NCBI GenBank assembly: GCA_945875915.1
Contig: CAMCMT010000006.1
Coordinates: 1-64,000 of the forward strand
From: Synechococcus sp. UW140
GTDB lineage: Bacteria; Cyanobacteriota; Cyanobacteriia; PCC-6307; Cyanobiaceae
Direction: 5' to 3'
DNA length: 64,000 bases
Shown piece after piece: positions 19,769 through 37,371 of the stretch. The notes under the pieces were generated by a model. That model was not told the DNA's origin and did not search any database. It saw only the letters and a list, made by a program, of their open reading frames with translations. The position numbers and the translations under genes are program-made. Numbering within the stretch: the stretch's first letter is position 1; each line of letters begins with the position of its first letter.

Positions 19769-20685
<917 letters not shown>

Positions 20686-20702
20686 TCGGCTTCAAGCAAT
20701 AG

Positions 20703-21236
<534 letters not shown>

Positions 21237-25561: not shown

Positions 25562-26182
25562 TCAGCTGCTTGCATGATCATTCTGGAGCCAGCCTTCATC
25601 GAGATGGTCGCCATAGCGATGCGATCGACTAAAGCGTAGAGGTCCATTCTCAGCTCCCCAGAGATAGGAGTGGGTACTGGGGTCAAAGCCGCGATCTCGG
25701 CTCACCCAGTGATCCTCGCCAAACTCTACTTCGCTTACCAGATAGGTTAGCTGACCATCGCGGGGAATCAGGCACTTGCAACCCGGCTCTACTTCACCGC
25801 AGAAAGAACCATCTTGCTTCTGGCGAAAGACCATCGCACAGCCTGGACGGGGCAGCAGATCCTCTACAACGATGCCAGACAGTAATTCGGGCCGAGATCC
25901 TGCTCCGGCTGCGCGAATTCCGTTGCGAAGGCCAAAGTTGAGCATCAGAAGATGGTCATCTGCAACGATCAAATGATGCAAACCCTGGCGGTATGGCCGC
26001 CAAGGATCATAATCATAACTCTGCTCAGAGTAAAACCAAGGGCCATGAAAAGTCTCCCATGGAAAGGGACGAAAAAAAATGTTGATATGAGAGAACTTGG
26101 ATGGCTCTGCCTGTGCCTGTTGATGGTTGCTGAAACAGCCTGAAATAGTCTGAGCGAAGTGCAATATGGATGCAGAATTCAT
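25562..26182 (-). CDS. cpeT: Phycoerythrin beta-chain bilin lyase CpeT
   Basis: A 206-residue T-type lyase (CpcT/CpeT family, beta-barrel). Signatures: FAQTISGCFSNHQQAQAEPSK with the conserved SN-QQA, FHGPWFYSEQSYDYDPWRPYRQGLH, FCGEVEPGCKCLIPRDG, TYLVSEVEF and DRGFDPSTHSYLWGAENGPL. The family loads the third beta Cys (here CpeB Cys-167). It lies 3 bases after cpeS and 5 before cpeR. The second T-type gene at 37399 sits near cpcBA and is assigned to phycocyanin. Confidence 0.93.
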   Translation of the reverse strand: MNSASILHFAQTISGCFSNHQQAQAEPSKFSHINIFFRPFPWETFHGPWFYSEQSYDYDPWRPYRQGLHHLIVADDHLLMLNFGLRNGIRAAGAGSRPELLSGIVVEDLLPRPGCAMVFRQKQDGSFCGEVEPGCKCLIPRDGQLTYLVSEVEFGEDHWVSRDRGFDPSTHSYLWGAENGPLRFSRSHRYGDHLDEGWLQNDHASS

Positions 26183-26185
26183 AAC

Positions 26186-26719
26186 TCAAGCCTCTATTCT
26201 TCTGATTTCCGAGCTGAAGGAAGTCTGCAATATGCCCGATCCCTCTGATGTACGCAGAACCGATGATCGGCAACGCACGTGCTCAGAAAGAAACCAGATG
26301 CGTTCCTCTGCAATTGACTGGCTATAGACAGTCTTGAGGATAAATGTGCCGTCGTCTAGAAAATTATAGGATGAGACTGCAGACTCTGCTTCTGCATAAC
26401 CTGTGCTGCGCAGCAGTTGTCCCGTTCGTTCGGTTTCTGGAAGCGGAATCAGGATGCAGGTGCCTTGAGAAACTGCCGTGGCATCATCGGGTTCCCAGTC
26501 TGACTCTGCCTGCCAAGTCATCTGAAAAGGGCTGGAAATCGTGCCAGGAACAATAGACTGCAATGCCAGATAATCCACTACTTCTTGATTATTAATGGCT
26601 AGTCGTTCGATCTTGATATTGCTTATGACATCCTCAAACTGTCTAAAGGCTAGGGCGTGCGCTGAACGCATCGACCGCCATTGCCCTTCCGAACGGGCAA
26701 CGAACTGCTCAATGCTCAT
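26186..26719 (-). CDS. cpeS: Phycoerythrin beta-82 bilin lyase CpeS
   Basis: A 177-residue S-type lyase. It opens IEQFVARSEGQWRSMRSAHAL and has AFRQFEDVISNIKIERL, IPLPETERTGQLLRSTGYAEAE, IAEERIWFLSEHVRCRSSVL and LQTSFSSEIRRIE. The family attaches phycoerythrobilin to beta Cys-82 of PE (CpeB). The RSAHALAFRQFE stretch is characteristic of CpeS rather than CpcS. It overlaps the preceding small gene by 11 bases and is followed by cpeT after 3 bases, so the set is tightly coupled. Confidence 0.93.
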   Translation of the reverse strand: MSIEQFVARSEGQWRSMRSAHALAFRQFEDVISNIKIERLAINNQEVVDYLALQSIVPGTISSPFQMTWQAESDWEPDDATAVSQGTCILIPLPETERTGQLLRSTGYAEAESAVSSYNFLDDGTFILKTVYSQSIAEERIWFLSEHVRCRSSVLRTSEGSGILQTSFSSEIRRIEA

Positions 26720-26987: not shown

Positions 26988-27728
26988 TCAGCCATTTGTT
27001 ACGGACAGAATTGAACCGCCGCGCCGTTGCACACTCTGTAGCGTTGAGGAGAGGCTGCCATAGGGGACAACGGACACTTGCACAGCTCGGCGGTTCACTC
27101 CGGTTGGCGACAACGTGCTCCAGCAGATGCGATAGCGACGCTGATTGCGGCTTGAACTTGCTCCCCGGTTTCCACGAGCCGCAGAAGCCGGCGCTGAACC
27201 CGTTGCAAGGCTTGCTTTTAGGATCGGTCGTTTACCGCCATCAAAGGCAGCGGAATTACCTCTCAGACTCAGGGAGCGCACATAGGTAAGATTGCTTTCT
27301 CCAGTGGTGGTAGCTGTGGTACGCCAGTAAGGAACGCTGTCGAAACCGAAGGCATCGCCGTACTCAGTGGAATACACGTAGCTGTCGATTTCGGCTTGAT
27401 ACCCTTCAGCGGCCAGTCGCTGAACATGCTCGCTCAGTTCTGCTTGGTTGCGTGGTGCCCGGCCCAGCAGATGTTTGAAGTTGAGTTCAACGAACCGATA
27501 GGGACCATTTTTCTCTAGAAACAGGCTGCGATAGGTGTCTGAACAGGCAAGGGCGGAAATCAGCCCCTGAACGGTGAGATCACCTTGGAGAAATTGGCTT
27601 TCAGCGGTCGCAACCAGCTGCTCTTCCATTAAGTGCGCATTGCCAAACACTTGTCGGTAGGCAGCTCGCAGTACGTCCTGGGCATGGGCTTGGTCTTGCA
27701 CTGATAACGTGGTGAGTGTGAAAGTCAT
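26988..27728 (-). CDS. cpeE: Phycoerythrin-associated rod linker (CpeE-like)
   Basis: A 246-residue linker. Residues about 15-150 form the PBS linker (pfam00427) domain: VLRAAYRQVFGNAHLMEE, FVELNFKHLLGRAPRNQAEL, EHVQRLAAEGYQAEIDSYV and FGFDSVPYWRTT. A C-terminal CpcD-like domain (RYRICWSTLSP to the last RRGGSILSVTNG) ends the protein. Such linkers sit in the PE hexamer cavity and join discs. Its linker domain closely resembles the second domain of the tandem linker upstream. Naming among CpeC, CpeD and CpeE is by similarity and order and could differ in other schemes. Confidence 0.85.
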   Translation of the reverse strand: MTFTLTTLSVQDQAHAQDVLRAAYRQVFGNAHLMEEQLVATAESQFLQGDLTVQGLISALACSDTYRSLFLEKNGPYRFVELNFKHLLGRAPRNQAELSEHVQRLAAEGYQAEIDSYVYSTEYGDAFGFDSVPYWRTTATTTGESNLTYVRSLSLRGNSAAFDGGKRPILKASLATGSAPASAARGNRGASSSRNQRRYRICWSTLSPTGVNRRAVQVSVVPYGSLSSTLQSVQRRGGSILSVTNG

Positions 27729-27798
27729 TGCCAGGGAGAAAACAGCAAAGGGAGAAACGAGTGTTGCAATTAAGAGCAGGCAGAATAGCCGGGCTTAC

Positions 27799-29325
27799 TT
27801 AGGCAACTTCAGTAATTGAAATGATGCGTCCGCCACGGCGGTGGATGTAGGCCAATTGGGTGGTCATGTCCTTGCCAGAAACTAGGTAGCTGGCGTTAGG
27901 TGTGCGCTGGCGGCCACCTGCGGGTTGCGCCTGAACGGCAATCCGATACCGTTTTGTGGTGGGGTCAACCGAGCCGCTGAAGGCGGAGCGGCGGTTCAGA
28001 CGTACGGTGGTGCTGCTCCAGCCGCCCGGCAGAGCCTTGGCACCCAACGAAGTTACCAAGCTGGAGGAACTTTGTACACTGTCGCTACTAGAGAAGCCCT
28101 GCACCAGCGCCAAGTGACGATTAAAGCCAATCTGGTTGCGGCCATTCTCCGTTTGGATGCGGGCGAATGGAACAGTGTGTTCGCCAAACCACTGTTGGTA
28201 TTCTGAGCCATCTAGGTAGCTGCTGATTTCCGCTTCGTAGCCTTCAACGGCCAGCCGTTGGATGTGTTCGCTCAACTCGGCCTGGCTAGCCGGCGCGCGT
28301 CCGAGCAGGTGCTTGAAGTTGAGTTCTACGAAGCGATAGGGAGCATTGCTTTCGAAGAAGCGACGCCTATATTCAGGCGAACAGGCAATAGCCCGCACCA
28401 ACTCTCGGGTGCTGAGATAGCCTTCGGCGAACTTGCTTTCGGCGCTGATTACCCTTTCGCTTTCCATGAGATGGGGGTTGCCCATCACTTGGCGGTAGGT
28501 TGCCCGGAGCAACCCCTGAATCTGATCGGGGGTGTCTCCCGGGACCCGTTGGAAGATTTCCTGGCTGCGCTGGCCGAGCCCGAATCCTACATATAGATCG
28601 CCACGCAGCGGTACGGAATCTCCCCCATCGCTGTTGCTACGACGCACAGGCGTAAAGGTTGTGCGACCCGTTTCAGTTCCTCCAAAAGCTCCAAAACTTT
28701 GGGCCCGAAACACCTGGGTCGGAACACGAATTGTGATGGGCTGATTCCTGGCCAGACTGACGAGGAGCTTACTCTTGGAGCCGATTGCGGAATCGCTGCC
28801 AGCAAAGTTCTGCTCCAGGGCAGCGATCCGATTGAAGGCCGATTGGGGTGAGCCGGCTGGGCTGTTCCAAGTGCGGATGTATGGGGCCGTGTCGTCTCCG
28901 AATGAACGTCCGTACTCTTCGGAATCAATGAGGGCATCGATGCTCGCGTCAAAGCCGGCGCTAGCAATCCTTGCCACTTCGGCGCTCACTTCTGCCTCAT
29001 CGACTGGCGGGCGGCCCAGTAGATGCTTGATGGACAATTCAACGCAACGATGGGGCGCCACGGCTTCATAGAAGCGTGAGCGGTAGAAGGACGACTTCGC
29101 GAGGGAGCGAACGAACTCTTTGACCGTTAGGCTGCCATGCCTCAGTTGCGATTCCGCCGATTCGAGGCGCTCACTTTCCATCGGCATGGTGTTACCGAAG
29201 ACATGCCGGTAGCAGGCGCTGATCACAAGGTTTAGGCTGGACTCATCATTACCTACTTTGTAGCTAACCGGATTGTCTAGAAGGGGAGTGGCGCCAAAGC
29301 TGAGTGCGAAGGATTGGTTGGTCAT
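27799..29325 (-). CDS. Tandem phycobilisome rod linker with two linker domains and a CpcD domain
   Basis: A 508-residue linker, about twice the usual size. Domain 1 (about residues 30-165): ISACYRHVFGNTMPMESERL, VELSIKHLLGRPPVDEAEV and SFGDDTAPYIRTWN. A Gly/Ser-rich spacer follows. Domain 2 (about 265-405): LLRATYRQVMGNPHLMESER, FVELNFKHLLGRAPASQAEL and WFGEHTVPFARI. A CpcD-type domain (about 455-508, ending IHRRGGRIISITEVA) closes it. It should hold two PE hexamers by one chain. Marine Synechococcus are reported to have long PE linkers of this kind, sometimes named CpeC; I leave the symbol open. Gaps to neighbouring linkers are 70 and 111 bases. Confidence 0.88.
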   Translation of the reverse strand: MTNQSFALSFGATPLLDNPVSYKVGNDESSLNLVISACYRHVFGNTMPMESERLESAESQLRHGSLTVKEFVRSLAKSSFYRSRFYEAVAPHRCVELSIKHLLGRPPVDEAEVSAEVARIASAGFDASIDALIDSEEYGRSFGDDTAPYIRTWNSPAGSPQSAFNRIAALEQNFAGSDSAIGSKSKLLVSLARNQPITIRVPTQVFRAQSFGAFGGTETGRTTFTPVRRSNSDGGDSVPLRGDLYVGFGLGQRSQEIFQRVPGDTPDQIQGLLRATYRQVMGNPHLMESERVISAESKFAEGYLSTRELVRAIACSPEYRRRFFESNAPYRFVELNFKHLLGRAPASQAELSEHIQRLAVEGYEAEISSYLDGSEYQQWFGEHTVPFARIQTENGRNQIGFNRHLALVQGFSSSDSVQSSSSLVTSLGAKALPGGWSSTTVRLNRRSAFSGSVDPTTKRYRIAVQAQPAGGRQRTPNASYLVSGKDMTTQLAYIHRRGGRIISITEVA

Positions 29326-29436
29326 TACACGACTGGGAGGGGGGAGGGGGGAGATCGGGAAATGCTGCGTTGGTGAGTGACTATCTCACTAGGCAGGTTT
29401 TGACGTTCTCTGAGTCAAGTAGCAATCAATGAATAG

Positions 29437-30312
29437 TTATACGGGAGTAATGCTGGCGATCACTCCTCCCTCGCGGTGAATCTGCTTGTATTTTGTTGAG
29501 AGCTGATCGAAGGGTACAAAGTAGGTGCGGTTCGCTTTCTTGTAACGAGAAATCGGTTTCACGTTGTTGGCGCGATACGCCGTTACATCCACTCGATAAA
29601 TGCGACCTTCTGCTCCAGCGCCAACTCCCAAACGGGTCTGGGCATCCTGGAGGTTAGACGAAGGCCTGAAACTCCAGCCCTGGCTGTCCGCGGAGGAGGG
29701 CGGAATTACCGCAACCGCTCGGTTGAGATAGGCATTCGCGCCGAGCCGTGAAGCCTTACCGGTAAGACTGCCCTTGAGGCTGCTGCTGCTGGCTCCCCTG
29801 AGCAACTGGAAGGTCCACGTGAACTCCTGCATGGTGAGGCAGCTTTCCGTCTTCCATCCCCTCTGGTAGGGAACAGTCCACTCACCGAAGGTGCTCTGGT
29901 ACTCATCTGAATCGATGAAGCTGTCGATATCTGCGTCATAGCCGTGGCTATCGAGGCGTTCTGCGTGGGCACGCATCTCTTCAAAATCCGCAGGAGCACG
30001 GCCCAGCAGGTGCCTGAAGGCCAGTTCGATATAGCGGTAGCGTGGGCAGGCATCGAAGAATCGAGCCCGATAGAGATCGCTCTTGGCGATGGTGCGAATG
30101 AACTCACGTACGCTGAGCTCACCCAGCTTCAGCTGGGACTCTGGAACTAGCTGACGCTCGCTCTCCATCACATAGGCGTTGCCCAACACTTGGCGGTAGG
30201 CGGCCTGAATCAGCTGCTCTTTGGCCGCGTCGCTATCACCAGGAAGCAGCTCGAGGGGGAGGTCGCTGTCGAATCGCTCAACGCCTAGGACCGAGGCGGG
30301 GCCAAAGGACAT
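29437..30312 (-). CDS. cpeC: Phycoerythrin-associated rod linker CpeC type
   Basis: A 291-residue linker. It begins SFGPASVLGVERFDSDLPLE, then the linker domain: IQAAYRQVLGNAYVMESER, LSVREFIRTIAKSDLYRARF, RYIELAFRHLLGRAPADFEEM, DSDEYQSTFGEWTVPYQRGW and FTWTFQLLRGASSSSLKG. A C-terminal CpcD-like domain runs from RIYRVDVTAYRANNVK to HREGGVIASITPV. The pattern agrees with CpeC of Fremyella. It is the first gene of the reverse-strand linker - cpeSTR series, so a promoter should lie in 30313-30521. It probably links the PC-proximal PE disc. Confidence 0.88.
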   Translation of the reverse strand: MSFGPASVLGVERFDSDLPLELLPGDSDAAKEQLIQAAYRQVLGNAYVMESERQLVPESQLKLGELSVREFIRTIAKSDLYRARFFDACPRYRYIELAFRHLLGRAPADFEEMRAHAERLDSHGYDADIDSFIDSDEYQSTFGEWTVPYQRGWKTESCLTMQEFTWTFQLLRGASSSSLKGSLTGKASRLGANAYLNRAVAVIPPSSADSQGWSFRPSSNLQDAQTRLGVGAGAEGRIYRVDVTAYRANNVKPISRYKKANRTYFVPFDQLSTKYKQIHREGGVIASITPV

Positions 30313-31746: not shown

Positions 31747-32442
31747 TCAGCCATTCAGGCTCTCGCGCGTCGTTCGGCGTGTCAGTGGGTTCCAGCAGTC
31801 GAGCTCCTTGAATGGGCGGCCAAGCAGGGAGGCGCGCAGGGCGTCGAGGTTGATGGCACCTGAAAAATCAGCCCCGCGAATGGAGCCAGCGCTGCTTATA
31901 TCAGCGTTGTTGAGCTCTGCACATCGGAAATCTACGTAGTCAAGCTGGCAGTTTAGGAATCGAGTTTTTTCACACAATGCACCTCTCAATAGGGCATGGC
32001 GCAGATCCGCGCCAGCCAGTCGCGCGCCCCTTAGGCATGCACCAGAGAGATTGGCTCCACTAAGATAGGCACCCATTAACGATGCTTCTTCCAGATCCAT
32101 GCCGGAAAGATCAGCACTGTTGAGAAAAGCCCCATTAAGTCTCGCCTGCGGGCCGATTGCCCCACTGCTTCGGAAATCGAAACCGTGGGGCCAAATAGTA
32201 TAACTGTCATAGCGAGCCAATCGTAGATCAGCGCCGTCAAGTTGGCAGCTGTGAAGGTCAGCGCCCCTGAGATCTACTCGGCATAATCTAGCGCTGGAGA
32301 GATCTAGCTCGCCAAGTTGTAAGTTGCGCCAATCGGCTCCCCTGGCATCCAATGGGCCTTCATGCCTATTGCCAGGGGGTTTCTGCTGTTCGGGGGTTGT
32401 GCGCTCAAAGGCGAGTGAAGTAATGGGGGAAGCTGACGTCAT
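31747..32442 (-). CDS. Pentapeptide-repeat protein
   Basis: A 231-residue protein with tandem A(D/N)LxX repeats between about residues 30 and 200: [73 protein letters not shown] and [14 protein letters not shown]. These form a right-handed quadrilateral beta-helix. A segment ([15 protein letters not shown]) of the kind seen in many cyanobacterial pentapeptide proteins interrupts the helix. No membrane segment. It lies between the phycobiliprotein-like gene and hemH on one strand. Function is unknown; a structural or assembly role in the phycobilisome is inference from context. Confidence 0.85.
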
Positions 32443-32548: not shown

Positions 32549-33148
32549 TCATAAGTTAACCTCAGTGGCTGGGCTGGATTGTTGGTCCAATTGTTGAATC
32601 ATCTTCTCAAGGTGCTCCAAGGCTTCTCCTAGAAGGGATACATCGTTTGAGCTCGCATAGGTAGAATAGTGTGAAAGCGCGTCTGTTTTTAGAAAGCTTA
32701 TCGCTAAAGCCATGCTGTTGACTGGCACCCCTAATTCCCGATATAAATCACGCAGGCCCTCTACTCCGGGAGGATGGGTGAAAATTGGGCGTCCCACCGC
32801 AACTGCATAGATTGTTACCCTAAGAAAATGCCAACAGTCGCGCCAACACGCTTCCGCTCTTGCCCCAGGGTAAAGCGCACCACCGGCCAGAACTAGGCCT
32901 GGATCTTCGCGAAGTAGTTGACTTTTGGCAGAGGTAACAATCAGCGGAGTCTTTGACTGAAGCCGCTGTAGGTTCTCAGCATTGACGGTAGAGTAACTGC
33001 AGATGATGGCCAATTCCTCATCGCTTAATGCACGAGCCTCCCCATCTGCTTGCTGAAGTATTGCGCGAATTGATGGCGGCAGAGATTGATCGTGCATCAA
33101 GCCGAGTATGCGCGCCTTGGCTGTCAGCTCTCTTAGTCTTTCGTCCAT
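32549..33148 (-). CDS. Divergent phycobiliprotein-like protein
   Basis: A 199-residue protein whose central and C-terminal parts align by eye with phycobiliprotein beta chains. ALYPGARAEACWRDCWHFLR matches the beta [20 protein letters not shown] region, so Cys-101, Arg-103 and Asp-104 fall on the bilin-binding Cys-82 and its Arg and Asp partners. Next come TIYAVAVGR, then VEGLRDLYRELGVPVNSMA, matching the [16 protein letters not shown] helix. The equivalents of Cys-50/61 and Cys-153 are absent. It may bind one bilin, or be a chromophore-free assembly or degradation factor. It starts 4 bases after its upstream neighbour (33153) stops. Confidence 0.7.
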   Translation of the reverse strand: MDERLRELTAKARILGLMHDQSLPPSIRAILQQADGEARALSDEELAIICSYSTVNAENLQRLQSKTPLIVTSAKSQLLREDPGLVLAGGALYPGARAEACWRDCWHFLRVTIYAVAVGRPIFTHPPGVEGLRDLYRELGVPVNSMALAISFLKTDALSHYSTYASSNDVSLLGEALEHLEKMIQQLDQQSSPATEVNL

Positions 33149-33152
33149 GGGA

Positions 33153-33644
33153 TCATTCTCGGTTAAGCCGCTTCATGTCATCGGTGCGTGCGGTGACTTG
33201 AAGTTTGATGTCGTTAGAGTCTGGATCATGATTGAGCACGGGCGTGGCAACCAGGTGGCCGTGACGTTCCAAGTAAAGCGCCCAGGCAACTTTTCCGGCA
33301 ATACCTGGGCAGTTTAGTAAAACGGAATTTACCAGGTCTGAGCCTAGGCCAAGAGCATGCAAGAGCACCTTGCAATCATCTTGACTGTTTACAGAGGCAG
33401 GGCGAATTGCTGCTCCTACAATCCAGCCTAACGAGGTGTCTTCAAGGGGGCCAGTGGAACTCAAGCAAGCCAATAGGAGATTTGCTCCTTTCCCAGCGAT
33501 TTGCCTATGCTCTAATCTCCATAGCTCAAGATTTTGAGGGTTCAGGGAAATCCGAAATCCGGGCTGACTGGCGTCAGGGGTAACCTCGTCTTGGCCTTGA
33601 CTGGAGTTGATAAGAGCATTGAGCTGACTAAGGGGATCGCTCAT
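33153..33644 (-). CDS. Hypothetical protein, first of three-gene pigment cassette
   Basis: A 163-residue soluble protein starting at ATG 33644 (SDPLSQLNALINSSQG). It has a mixed fold: FRISLNPQNLELWRLEHRQ, GANLLLACLSSTGPLEDT, GWIVGAAIRPASVNSQDD and VAWALYLERHGHLVATPVLN. I do not recognise the family and see no catalytic or metal motif. It runs into the phycobiliprotein-like gene with a 4-base gap, so both are probably co-translated. Its DNA is AT-richer than cpcBA just upstream. Confidence 0.6.
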   Translation of the reverse strand: MSDPLSQLNALINSSQGQDEVTPDASQPGFRISLNPQNLELWRLEHRQIAGKGANLLLACLSSTGPLEDTSLGWIVGAAIRPASVNSQDDCKVLLHALGLGSDLVNSVLLNCPGIAGKVAWALYLERHGHLVATPVLNHDPDSNDIKLQVTARTDDMKRLNRE

Positions 33645-33805
33645 TGCAATTCTCGTTGCGGGAATAAGATCTTCATCCAGCTCACTTTGCCAAGGATGGT
33701 GGTAAGAGCAATCGCTTCGGCCATCAGTTGAGCCCATTATTGACGAGATTGACGATGAACCCATTCCTCAATTGTTGAAGGTAATTGATTGATGCGAATC
33801 CCATT

Positions 33806-34564
33806 TTATTGTGCTCCTGTGCTCAGCATGGCAGCTGCAATCCAGAGCACGAGTCCCGTGATCACAAAACCACCGGCTGTCACAGTATTTTGCCAGAGCT
33901 TTCGAGCCCATGGTGCGGGGGCGTCGGCGAGCCAGGCCGGTCGTTGCTTGATGGCGTCTTGCCAGAGCACCTTGGCTGGAGCTCGCTTGGCCGTTTTGTC
34001 CCTCCAGATGCTGTCGTAGCGGGGCGCCTGCTGGTTGAAGGGCATGGTGCCCAGGGCTTGGCCCGGTAAAATCCGTGACCTTTGATAGGGAACGGTATTA
34101 AATCCAAATGTATCCATGTATTCTTCCGAATCCAGGAGTGAATCAATAAATGTTCCGAGACCATGCTGGGCGATCATGATGGAGTAGGCGAGCCGCTCTT
34201 GATTGCCGTGTACAGGACGTCCCAGCACCCGGTTCACTACCTGCTCAACCATGCGGTAGTTGCTGTTGCAGCGGTAGAAATCATCCCGGAACTTTCGAGA
34301 CAGTAGTAGACCCCGAATGAAATCTCGCATCGTGATCTGGCCGTTCTGCAGCTGCGACTCAAGCGCTGGCTCCCGGTCGACTTTGAAGGCGTGAAAGAAG
34401 ATCTGTTTGTAGGCCTGGGCAATCTGGCTCTCAAAGTTTCCGTTGCCACTGAGCTCACCAGTTCCGGACTTGAACTCACGGCTGTCCTGTCCGCCGGGTA
34501 GCTGAAAGCTGTTCACCCGCGCGTTCATGGTCAGCAGCTGGGTAGCAAGAAGCGGAAGGGCCAT
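33806..34564 (-). CDS. cpcL: CpcL (CpcG2)-like rod linker with C-terminal membrane helix
   Basis: A 252-residue linker of the CpcG group. It opens MALPLLATQLL...NARVNSFQL, as CpcG proteins do. The linker domain covers about residues 45-165: AQAYKQIFFHAFKVDREPALE, MRDFIRGLLLSRKFRDDFY, VVNRVLGRPVHGNQE and FGFNTVPYQRSR. Instead of the usual core-binding tail, residues about 228-247 (VTAGGFVITGLVLWIAAAML) form a hydrophobic helix. This is the mark of CpcL/CpcG2, which anchors core-less phycocyanin rods to the thylakoid and passes energy mainly to photosystem I. It lies just downstream of cpcBA on the same strand, past a terminator. Confidence 0.88.
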   Translation of the reverse strand: MALPLLATQLLTMNARVNSFQLPGGQDSREFKSGTGELSGNGNFESQIAQAYKQIFFHAFKVDREPALESQLQNGQITMRDFIRGLLLSRKFRDDFYRCNSNYRMVEQVVNRVLGRPVHGNQERLAYSIMIAQHGLGTFIDSLLDSEEYMDTFGFNTVPYQRSRILPGQALGTMPFNQQAPRYDSIWRDKTAKRAPAKVLWQDAIKQRPAWLADAPAPWARKLWQNTVTAGGFVITGLVLWIAAAMLSTGAQ

Positions 34565-34916: not shown

Positions 34917-35405
34917 TCAGACGAGGGCGCCGATTGCGTAGTCGATGTAGTTGTTGGCGATATTACCGGGGTCGCCGGAAATGCCGTGGTTGGCCTTGAT
35001 GTAGTTCAGGGCTTCGACGTACCAGGAGGGGGACAGTTCGAACGCGCGGTTGATTTCATCGAGACCAGCGATGAGGTACTCATCGATGGGGCCTGTGCCA
35101 CCAGCCACCAGGCAGTAGGTGATCTGACGGAGGTAGTAACCGATGTCACGGGCACACTTGGCCTTGCCACGGGCGTCGGAAGCGTAGTTGCTCCCTTGCA
35201 TCTGGGTGGTGTAGGGGAACTTGCTATACACAGCCTGGGCAGCACCGTTCACGAGGGAATCGGCATTGGCGGTGAGTGACTTAGCGGCTGCGAGGGCGTT
35301 TTTGGCGCGCTCGAAACGACCGAAGGCTGCGTTCAGCTCGGTTTGGCTAAGGAAGCGGCCTTGGGAATCGGCTGCTGAAACGGCCTCGGTGAGGGGTGTC
35401 TTCAT
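34917..35405 (-). CDS. cpcA: C-phycocyanin alpha chain
   Basis: The alpha subunit of phycocyanin, 162 residues. The single bilin site is Cys-84 ([20 protein letters not shown]). Other marks are [20 protein letters not shown] at the start, [19 protein letters not shown] and the C-terminal [12 protein letters not shown]. CpcE/CpcF coded at 12628-14180 load this Cys. It is second in the cpcBA operon, 67 bases after cpcB, and is followed by a strong terminator. Confidence 0.97.
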
Positions 35406-35472: not shown

Positions 35473-35991
35473 TCAGCCGACAGCAGCAGCGGCGCGATCG
35501 AAGTAGGTGCCGATCTCGGAGACGAGAGCGGTGCAATCACCCTGGGTGATGCCGCCGCGATCGTTAACAATGGCGAGGGCAGCGTCCTTCATCTTGCGAA
35601 CGCCTTCAGCCACCGACGCGCCGGGGACGCCGAGGGCGAGATAGGTTTCGCGTAGGCCATTCAGGCAACGATCTTCCAGCACGGAAGCATCGCCGTTGAA
35701 GGTTGCATAGGTGACATAGCGGAGAATGATCTCCATGTCACGCAGGCAAGCAGCCATGCGGCGTTGGGTGTAAGCGTTGCCGCCCGGGGCGATCAGGGCA
35801 GGCTGCTGGTCGAAGAGACCGCGGGCAGCGTTGGTGACGATTTTGGAGGCGTTGGAGGTGATGCGGTTGACCGAATCCATGCGCTTGTTGCTTTCAGCAA
35901 CAACAGCTGCGAGGGCGTCGATCTGACCAGCGTTGAGGAATTCGCCGCGGGCATCAGCCTGAGCAACGACCTTGGTGAAGGCGTCGAACAT
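35473..35991 (-). CDS. cpcB: C-phycocyanin beta chain
   Basis: The beta subunit of phycocyanin, 172 residues. Bilin sites are Cys-82 ([18 protein letters not shown]) and Cys-153 ([12 protein letters not shown]). Asn-72 in [11 protein letters not shown] is the position of gamma-N-methylasparagine. [20 protein letters not shown] is the conserved helix. The S-type lyase at 18102 and the T-type lyase at 37399 are expected to load Cys-82 and Cys-153. Only one cpcBA copy is present in the window. Confidence 0.97.
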
Positions 35992-36316: not shown

Positions 36317-36910
36317 TCAAGACGGGGCTCGGTCCGGGACGAGCCGATCAAGGCGATCAGCCGCTGTTGGCGGAGCCCGTCTTGGCGCGGTCGGGCTTGT
36401 TGGGCCGGCTTCGCCATCGCTGCCGCGGACGCCGGTGGAGACGCTAAAGCCGACGACTTTGCCGCCCATCCGGCTGACCCGCCGGATCGTGTCGCCCATG
36501 GGGGAGAAGGGCGCATTCCTCACCAGATCCGATGTGCGGGCGTAGTCGATGGTGTATCGGCCGCATCTGGGCCATGTTCTGGGGGCCCGGCCGTGCTGAT
36601 GCTTGAAGTTCAGCTCGCTGAAACGATTGGCGTTGCAGTTCTCCAAGAACTTGGTGCGATAGAGGCCGCTCTTGGCTATTTGACTCCCAAACTCCCGCAC
36701 GCTCAGGTAGCCCGGCTTGACCAGCAATTCGGGGCCTTCGAGGCGCTCGGGGGCCATTACATCTGGGTTGCCGAGCACCTGTTGAGTCACGGCCTGGATC
36801 CGGGCAACCTCGTCGTGTTGCGATCCATGGGTTCTTTTTTGCTCTTGAGCAACCCTTTTGACATTGTTACAAATTTCGCCGCTGGCGGTTTTGCGCTCAG
36901 CCGATACCAT
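36317..36910 (-). pseudogene. Collapsed phycobilisome linker gene
   Basis: The frame holds the first half of a PBS linker domain (VTQQVLGNPDVMAPERLEG, GYLSVREFGSQIAKSGLYRT, NRFSELNFKHQHGRAP) and then jumps to a short CpcD-like motif (RRVSRMGGKVVGFSV). The second half of the linker domain and the spacer are missing. The remaining C-terminus is Pro/Ala-rich filler. Family positions that are normally fixed are changed, for example FKHQHGRAP for FKHLLGRAP. The gene lies upstream of cpcBA where a PC rod linker (CpcC type) often sits. It is most likely a decaying copy, though the reading frame is still open. Confidence 0.7.
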
Positions 36911-36936
36911 CCGGCACAACCCCTTTGGGCTCTGTA

Positions 36937-37371
36937 ATGGCCGCCCAGTCTCCACCCCCCTCCCCAGCCCAGCTTCAACACCGCGTCGGCGAGCAACTCC
37001 AGGCCCTTAGCCAGGTGTCGGAGGCCTTGATGTTTCGCCTCCTCGACCTAGAGGAACGGCTGGGAGCCGTCGAGCAGCAGCTCGTTAGCCTCCGCGCCCG
37101 CGACGATCAGGCCTCCTGGGGCTTGGGCGCGGACACGGGCGAGATTCTCGCTCTCACCGAGGAGCGGCTAGCCCGGCTAGAAGACCTACTCAACGGCCGC
37201 CGTCAACTGCTTGGCGGCGGTGGTAGTTCTTCCTATGGTCAAGACGCTGGTTTCGCCGGTGCCGAGGGAGCCATTAATGCAGTGGCGAGCGGCTCCGCGG
37301 TGCGGGACGCGGCCTTTGATCCCTTCCCGGAAGAGGAAGAGCAGGCCTTCATGGATGAACTGATCGCCTGA
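36937..37371 (+). CDS. Coiled-coil hypothetical protein next to cpcT
   Basis: A 144-residue protein from ATG 36937. A Pro-rich start is followed by a long helix with heptad character (LQHRVGEQLQALSQVSEALMFRLLDLEERLGAVEQQL broken here as a whole region, residues about 12-50), a second helix (ILALTEERLARLEDLL), a Gly/Ser spacer and an acidic end (FPEEEEQAFMDELIA). I do not recognise a named family. It overlaps the upstream end of the decayed linker frame region and converges on cpcT with 27 bases between stops. Confidence 0.65.
   Translation: MAAQSPPPSPAQLQHRVGEQLQALSQVSEALMFRLLDLEERLGAVEQQLVSLRARDDQASWGLGADTGEILALTEERLARLEDLLNGRRQLLGGGGSSSYGQDAGFAGAEGAINAVASGSAVRDAAFDPFPEEEEQAFMDELIA

Follow-up and report, generated by a model that had tools for sequence, protein, structure and literature searches.

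We analysed a 64,000-nucleotide stretch of DNA from Synechococcus sp. UW140 (contig CAMCMT010000006.1; hereafter the window), and find that the open reading frame at positions 32549-33148 is almost certainly aplA, the gene for an allophycocyanin-like phycobiliprotein. The AplA class has already been named and reported in clusters of this kind, and the gene family is known. Across the phylum, aplA tracks phycoerythrin, and the quantified linkage is a useful addition: in the literature that we searched, we found no statement of a phylum-wide tie between the two. A preliminary description of the window had proposed a divergent phycobiliprotein at this position and left its strand unstated; the plus strand here is stop-rich, and the reading frame lies on the minus strand.

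AplA is a phycobiliprotein with one conserved bilin site

The predicted protein matches PF00502 with an E-value of 1.7e-31 (109.7 bits; curated cut-off 22.2), which bears out the proposed family. The NCBIfam models for ApcA, CpeB, CpcB and ApcB match it at 1e-14 to 1e-17, ApcA being the best (9.5e-17), and in the PDB its sequence matches chains of phycoerythrin, phycocyanin and allophycocyanin, CpeB chains scoring best (2e-15). AplA falls below the NCBIfam equivalog cut-offs for ApcA, ApcB, CpcA, CpcB, CpeA and CpeB, the closest being ApcA at 61.4 bits versus 270. The view that it is neither phycoerythrin, phycocyanin nor a known allophycocyanin subunit thus holds for the canonical subunits, and needs amending in that the protein belongs to a named class, AplA.

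Alignment with the CpcB encoded in the window places Cys101, Arg103 and Asp104 of AplA exactly on C82, R84 and D85, as had been claimed, and also pairs R97 with R78, R110 with R91 and D35 with D13. The conserved helix described after the bilin site, GLRDLYRELGVP, is in place. Other bilin cysteines are indeed gone, with no equivalent of beta-Cys153 and no Cys50/61 pair, and Asn72 and Asp3 are likewise not kept. Among positions that contact the partner subunit in alpha-beta pairs, Asp3 and Tyr18 are changed, and Asp13 and Arg91 are kept. The N-terminus differs as noted before, extending 23 residues beyond the ApcA of the same genome (28 residues in Rippkaea PCC 8801), with a helix predicted at residues 3-11.

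The C-W-R-D motif is invariant in all aligned Apl sequences, both in 58 sequences drawn from across the phylum and in a second alignment (26/26), so that Cys101 is conserved among orthologs. The tryptophan that follows the bilin cysteine marks the Apl family; the canonical subunits of the window's genome have L, A, I or Y there. A second Apl-specific feature is a Trp-His pair just after C-W-R-D (position 87 aromatic in 25/26, position 88 His in 22/26). With dN/dS (the ratio of nonsynonymous to synonymous substitution rates) at 0.20-0.35, aplA is under purifying selection. Because the site persists under this selection in orthologs at 41-90% identity and in the 58 phylum-wide sequences, chance is excluded as the source of the bilin-site match. 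The same purifying selection, the invariant bilin site and conserved synteny, together with the presence of aplA in 100/400 genomes of the same family and 39/291 across the phylum, make it highly improbable that AplA is a leftover of a duplicated allophycocyanin gene that has lost its function or its bilin, even with Asn72, Asp3 and Tyr18 lost in the window lineage.

An AlphaFold2 model of AplA, built with 14 orthologs, has ten helices and a mean predicted local distance difference test score of 90.7. All listed Foldseek matches of the model in the PDB are phycobiliproteins (template modeling score ~0.52-0.60 by query), in line with the globin-like fold expected from the preliminary description. 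The root-mean-square deviation of ~8.5 Å is uninformative, since a low-confidence model of the window CpcB, used as a control, behaves alike. We had considered a displaced N-terminal arm on the basis of the high deviation from PDB chains, and dropped it: the low-confidence CpcB control gave an equally low template modeling score and a larger deviation.

Apl proteins form a single clade

Thirteen loci from freshwater or brackish Synechococcus, Cyanobium or unclassified cyanobacteria carry aplA among the same neighbours. In a maximum-likelihood tree, computed without the named Fremyella AplA sequence, Apl forms one clade (support 100/100) apart from every alpha and beta phycobiliprotein. This clade joins the window AplA to Apl proteins of Rippkaea PCC 8801, Gloeothece PCC 7424, Pseudanabaena PCC 7367, Chroococcales and large-genome cyanobacteria. 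A narrow profile missed aplA in two phycoerythrin genomes (G589 and G653), and a broader Apl profile recovered both. The broader profile sets Apl clearly apart: its weakest Apl match was 2.5e-52, and other phycobiliproteins reached ~1e-28 at best in ten genomes searched at a lower threshold. We found no relative in viral contigs. The copies in Rippkaea orientalis PCC 8801, Gloeothece citriformis PCC 7424 and Pseudanabaena sp. PCC 7367 lie on plasmids, where their annotation goes no further than "phycobilisome protein" or "phycocyanin".

aplA is linked to phycoerythrin

Among 291 genomes from across the phylum, aplA occurs in 39 and cpeB in 44, with both in 35 (Fisher p ~3e-32 on raw counts; the genomes are related, and such p-values overstate their independence). 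The two genes lie no more than 25 kb apart in 22 of these 35 genomes. Outside the picocyanobacterial family, 21/22 phycoerythrin genomes have aplA, and within the family the link to phycoerythrin holds for 94/100 aplA genomes. Nine of the 44 phycoerythrin genomes lack aplA (eight picocyanobacterial genomes and G484), and four aplA genomes have no cpeB over the cut-off (G435, G607, G609 and G622). Judged by size and genus group, the eight picocyanobacterial genomes resemble Prochlorococcus and type 2 strains. For these four and G484, a lost phycoerythrin or another bilin-protein partner is conceivable.

Plasmid phycoerythrin cassettes also include aplA, which adjoins pebAB in 2/3. Of the three plasmid loci (L110, L111 and L112), those of Rippkaea and Gloeothece carry a cassette of cpeBA, pebAB, linkers, lyases and aplA, and that of Pseudanabaena has cpeBA and aplA. 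Transposase genes lie near the cassettes in Rippkaea and Pseudanabaena, and toxin-antitoxin genes in Gloeothece and Pseudanabaena. A pentapeptide-repeat gene also accompanies phycoerythrin genes and aplA on two plasmids (L111, 2272-3072; L112, 9735-10556) and in a large genome (L103), just as unk5 accompanies them in the window.

The aplA locus

On the minus strand, the window reads cpcB-cpcA-cpcL(cpcGII)-unk4-aplA-unk5-hemH, followed by three phycoerythrin rod linkers, cpeS and cpeT (Table 1). The stop codon of unk4 precedes the aplA start by 4 nt (GAGAATGATCCCATG), and aplA is therefore probably translated from the same message. The unk4 gene evolves fast (dN/dS ~0.45); several of its orthologs match only from Met41 (~33644), and translation probably begins there, 40 codons downstream of the annotated start. 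The gene hemH is a marker of the Type IIB cluster (PMC4139726, PMC6363710). Other contigs of the same genome encode ApcA, ApcB, two further allophycocyanin-like subunits and an ApcE-like core linker; AplA is therefore no stand-in for a missing core subunit.

Table 1. Features of the window around aplA.
Feature	Position	Strand	Basis
cpeB + cpeA, phycoerythrin	20125..21236	+	NF058508 3.8e-98 for cpeB; tree placement
cpeS + cpeT, bilin lyases	25562..26719	-	PF09367 1.6e-55; PF06206 1.2e-58
Phycoerythrin rod linkers, three genes	26988..30312	-	PF00427 matches; syntenic in orthologous loci
hemH, ferrochelatase with C-terminal chlorophyll-binding-like segment	30522..31754	-	PF00762 1.5e-118; PF00504 0.0015
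unk5, pentapeptide-repeat protein	31747..32442	-	PF00805 2.9e-24; syntenic in all loci; name from PMC2246261
aplA, allophycocyanin-like phycobiliprotein, 199 amino acids	32549..33148	-	ATG start; PF00502 1.7e-31; Apl clade 100/100
AplA bilin site, Cys101-Trp102-Arg103-Asp104	32837..32848	-	Aligned to beta C82-x-R84-D85
AplA N-terminal extension, residues 1-23	33080..33148	-	Alignment with same-genome ApcA, ApcB, CpcB
unk4, no Pfam or NCBIfam family	33153..33764	-	Name from PMC2246261
cpcL / cpcGII, rod linker	33806..34564	-	PF00427 3.6e-38
CpcL C-terminal hydrophobic (membrane-anchor-like) segment, residues 228-246	33827..33883	-	19-residue window at residue 228, mean hydropathy 1.98
cpcA, phycocyanin alpha	34917..35405	-	TIGR01338 2.9e-85, over cut-off
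cpcB, phycocyanin beta	35473..35991	-	TIGR01339 1.2e-96, over cut-off

About 20 picocyanobacterial loci have the order unk4-aplA-cpcGII-unk5, in agreement with an earlier survey (PMC2246261). In nearly all picocyanobacterial loci, aplA is directly beside, or at most two genes away from, a linker whose C-terminus bears a hydrophobic segment. We rejected a general CpcL link outside picocyanobacteria, as the linkers of the Rippkaea and Gloeothece plasmid clusters have no hydrophobic tail. In L014 (2135-2956), L015, L016, L020 and L022, another CpcL-like linker lies toward the opposite end of the cluster; the L014 copy, the only one measured, has a hydrophobic segment at its C-terminus. We found no such second linker in the window. 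Two cpcGII copies were noted by Larsson et al. 2014 (PMC4139726).

The window also holds a rod-linker remnant (36317-36955, minus strand), a GTG-start frame that retains linker-domain positions 7-84 of 126, overlaps unk36925 (36925-37371, plus strand) and looks like a decaying gene; the equivalent place in L014 (3573-4418) holds a full 281-amino-acid linker. Outside picocyanobacteria, aplA and a HEAT-repeat gene repeatedly stand in divergent orientation (L095, L097, L099, L100, L102-L104 and L106; L111, 8252-8908); the latter is NblB-like without reaching the NblB cut-off, and is possibly a functional partner. A dedicated HEAT-repeat lyase was rejected, since this gene is NblB-like, below cut-off, and not CpeY/CpeZ. 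We also rejected unk4 as the identity of the gene beside Pseudanabaena apl (L110, 7477-8043), whose product, judged by eye, resembles a secreted PEP-CTERM-type protein.

Proposed role of AplA

AplA is a paralog of the phycobiliproteins, extended at the N-terminus, and most likely binds one bilin through a thioether bond to Cys101, with Arg103 and Asp104 holding the chromophore. It is probably made alongside the phycoerythrin machinery and the genes for CpcL rods (cpcBA-cpcL-unk4-aplA-unk5), and would most likely act beside the antenna, either aiding assembly or reporting on the bilin available for phycoerythrin, rather than being built stoichiometrically into rod or core. We infer both the covalent bilin on the window AplA and the accessory role. 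The latter is favored over a stoichiometric subunit because of the phycoerythrin linkage, the plasmid phycoerythrin cassettes, the nearness of aplA to a linker with a hydrophobic C-terminal segment in almost all picocyanobacterial loci, which makes a link to CpcL rods plausible there, and faster evolution with a frozen pocket: between the window and L014, dN/dS is 0.24 for aplA and 0.06 for cpcA, and the AplA bilin pocket is frozen despite this faster evolution than rod subunits. The preliminary description had left a choice among antenna, sensor and assembly factor; the tie to phycoerythrin and an evolutionary rate above that of a rod subunit tip it toward an accessory. Taking the identity as AplA and a bilin-carrying accessory of phycoerythrin-containing rods as one proposition, we judge its chances to be evenly balanced.

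Several points weigh against this accessory role. Four genomes have aplA with no phycoerythrin, and the eight picocyanobacterial genomes and G484 with phycoerythrin and no aplA mean that aplA is not essential to phycoerythrin assembly. Asp13 and Arg91, which normally serve alpha-beta pairing, would also suit an oligomer subunit. The more specific proposal that AplA is a phycobiliprotein turned dedicated accessory of phycoerythrin biogenesis, as a bilin-supply read-out or assembly chaperone that in picocyanobacteria serves the CpcL (photosystem I) rods of its own operon, is tentative, and we lean against it.

Six et al. 2007 carried over from Fremyella the view that AplA is a photosensor (PMC2246261). 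Here, AplA would be a soluble protein in which light absorption by the bilin alters conformation or partners, signaling independently of the phycobilisome. The AplA pocket is more conserved than the remainder of the protein and is followed directly by the family-specific Trp-His pair, which speaks for this reading, but none of the loci examined has a conserved signaling domain, kinase or regulator next to aplA, and a general sensor would need no strict coupling to phycoerythrin genes. We consider a photosensor rather unlikely.

It is unlikely, too, that AplA belongs to CpcL rods, the phycobilisomes of the photosystem I type, as a structural subunit, for instance a single-bilin emitter or an adapter between the rod base and membrane-anchored CpcL. 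The retention of D13 and R91 and the nearness of picocyanobacterial aplA to hydrophobic-tailed linkers would fit such a subunit. However, the same-cluster linkers on the Rippkaea and Gloeothece plasmids have no hydrophobic segment, aplA evolves faster than rod subunits, Fremyella AplA was reportedly not found in phycobilisomes, and type 2 strains have unk4-cpcGII-unk5 without aplA (PMC2246261). As to the accessory role that we favor, the tie to phycoerythrin and the fixed place beside cpcL narrow the question of AplA to rods that contain phycoerythrin, and open it to testing.

Comparison with known systems

The AplA class was reportedly named by Montgomery et al. in 2004, who are said to have found in Fremyella an AplA with an extension of ~28 residues relative to allophycocyanin and a covalent chromophore; the protein is reportedly absent from phycobilisomes. 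This extension figure agrees with our measurement in Rippkaea PCC 8801. The window AplA shares with the class its fold family, N-terminal extension and single Cys82-type bilin site; its extension is shorter than that of Rippkaea Apl (23 versus 28 residues), and its lineage has Tyr18 replaced and Cys105 in place of Phe after C-W-R-D.

In the order of its genes, the window resembles both marine Synechococcus and the Type IIB cluster. Six et al. 2007 described aplA upstream of cpcGII in all marine Synechococcus containing phycoerythrin II, with unk4 preceding aplA and unk5, the pentapeptide gene, following cpcGII (PMC2246261); the marine-type loci in our set have this order. Larsson et al. 2014 described a Type IIB cluster in which unk4 follows cpcA and hemH is included (PMC4139726), and Sanchez-Baracaldo et al. 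2019 named aplA within this cluster, downstream of cpcBA (PMC6363710). The window likewise has unk4-aplA with cpcGII and unk5, downstream of cpcBA; cpcGII comes after aplA in the marine strains, whereas cpcL lies upstream of unk4 in the window.

Of the canonical subunits, ApcA shares the bilin site and gives the best NCBIfam match, but AplA stays under its cut-off and branches apart from the clade that unites all alpha and beta subunits. CpcB has C82, R84, D85, R78, R91 and D13 in common with AplA. Unlike CpcB and CpeB, AplA has no Cys153 equivalent, Cys50/61 pair or Asn72, and has instead an extra N-terminus and Trp83.
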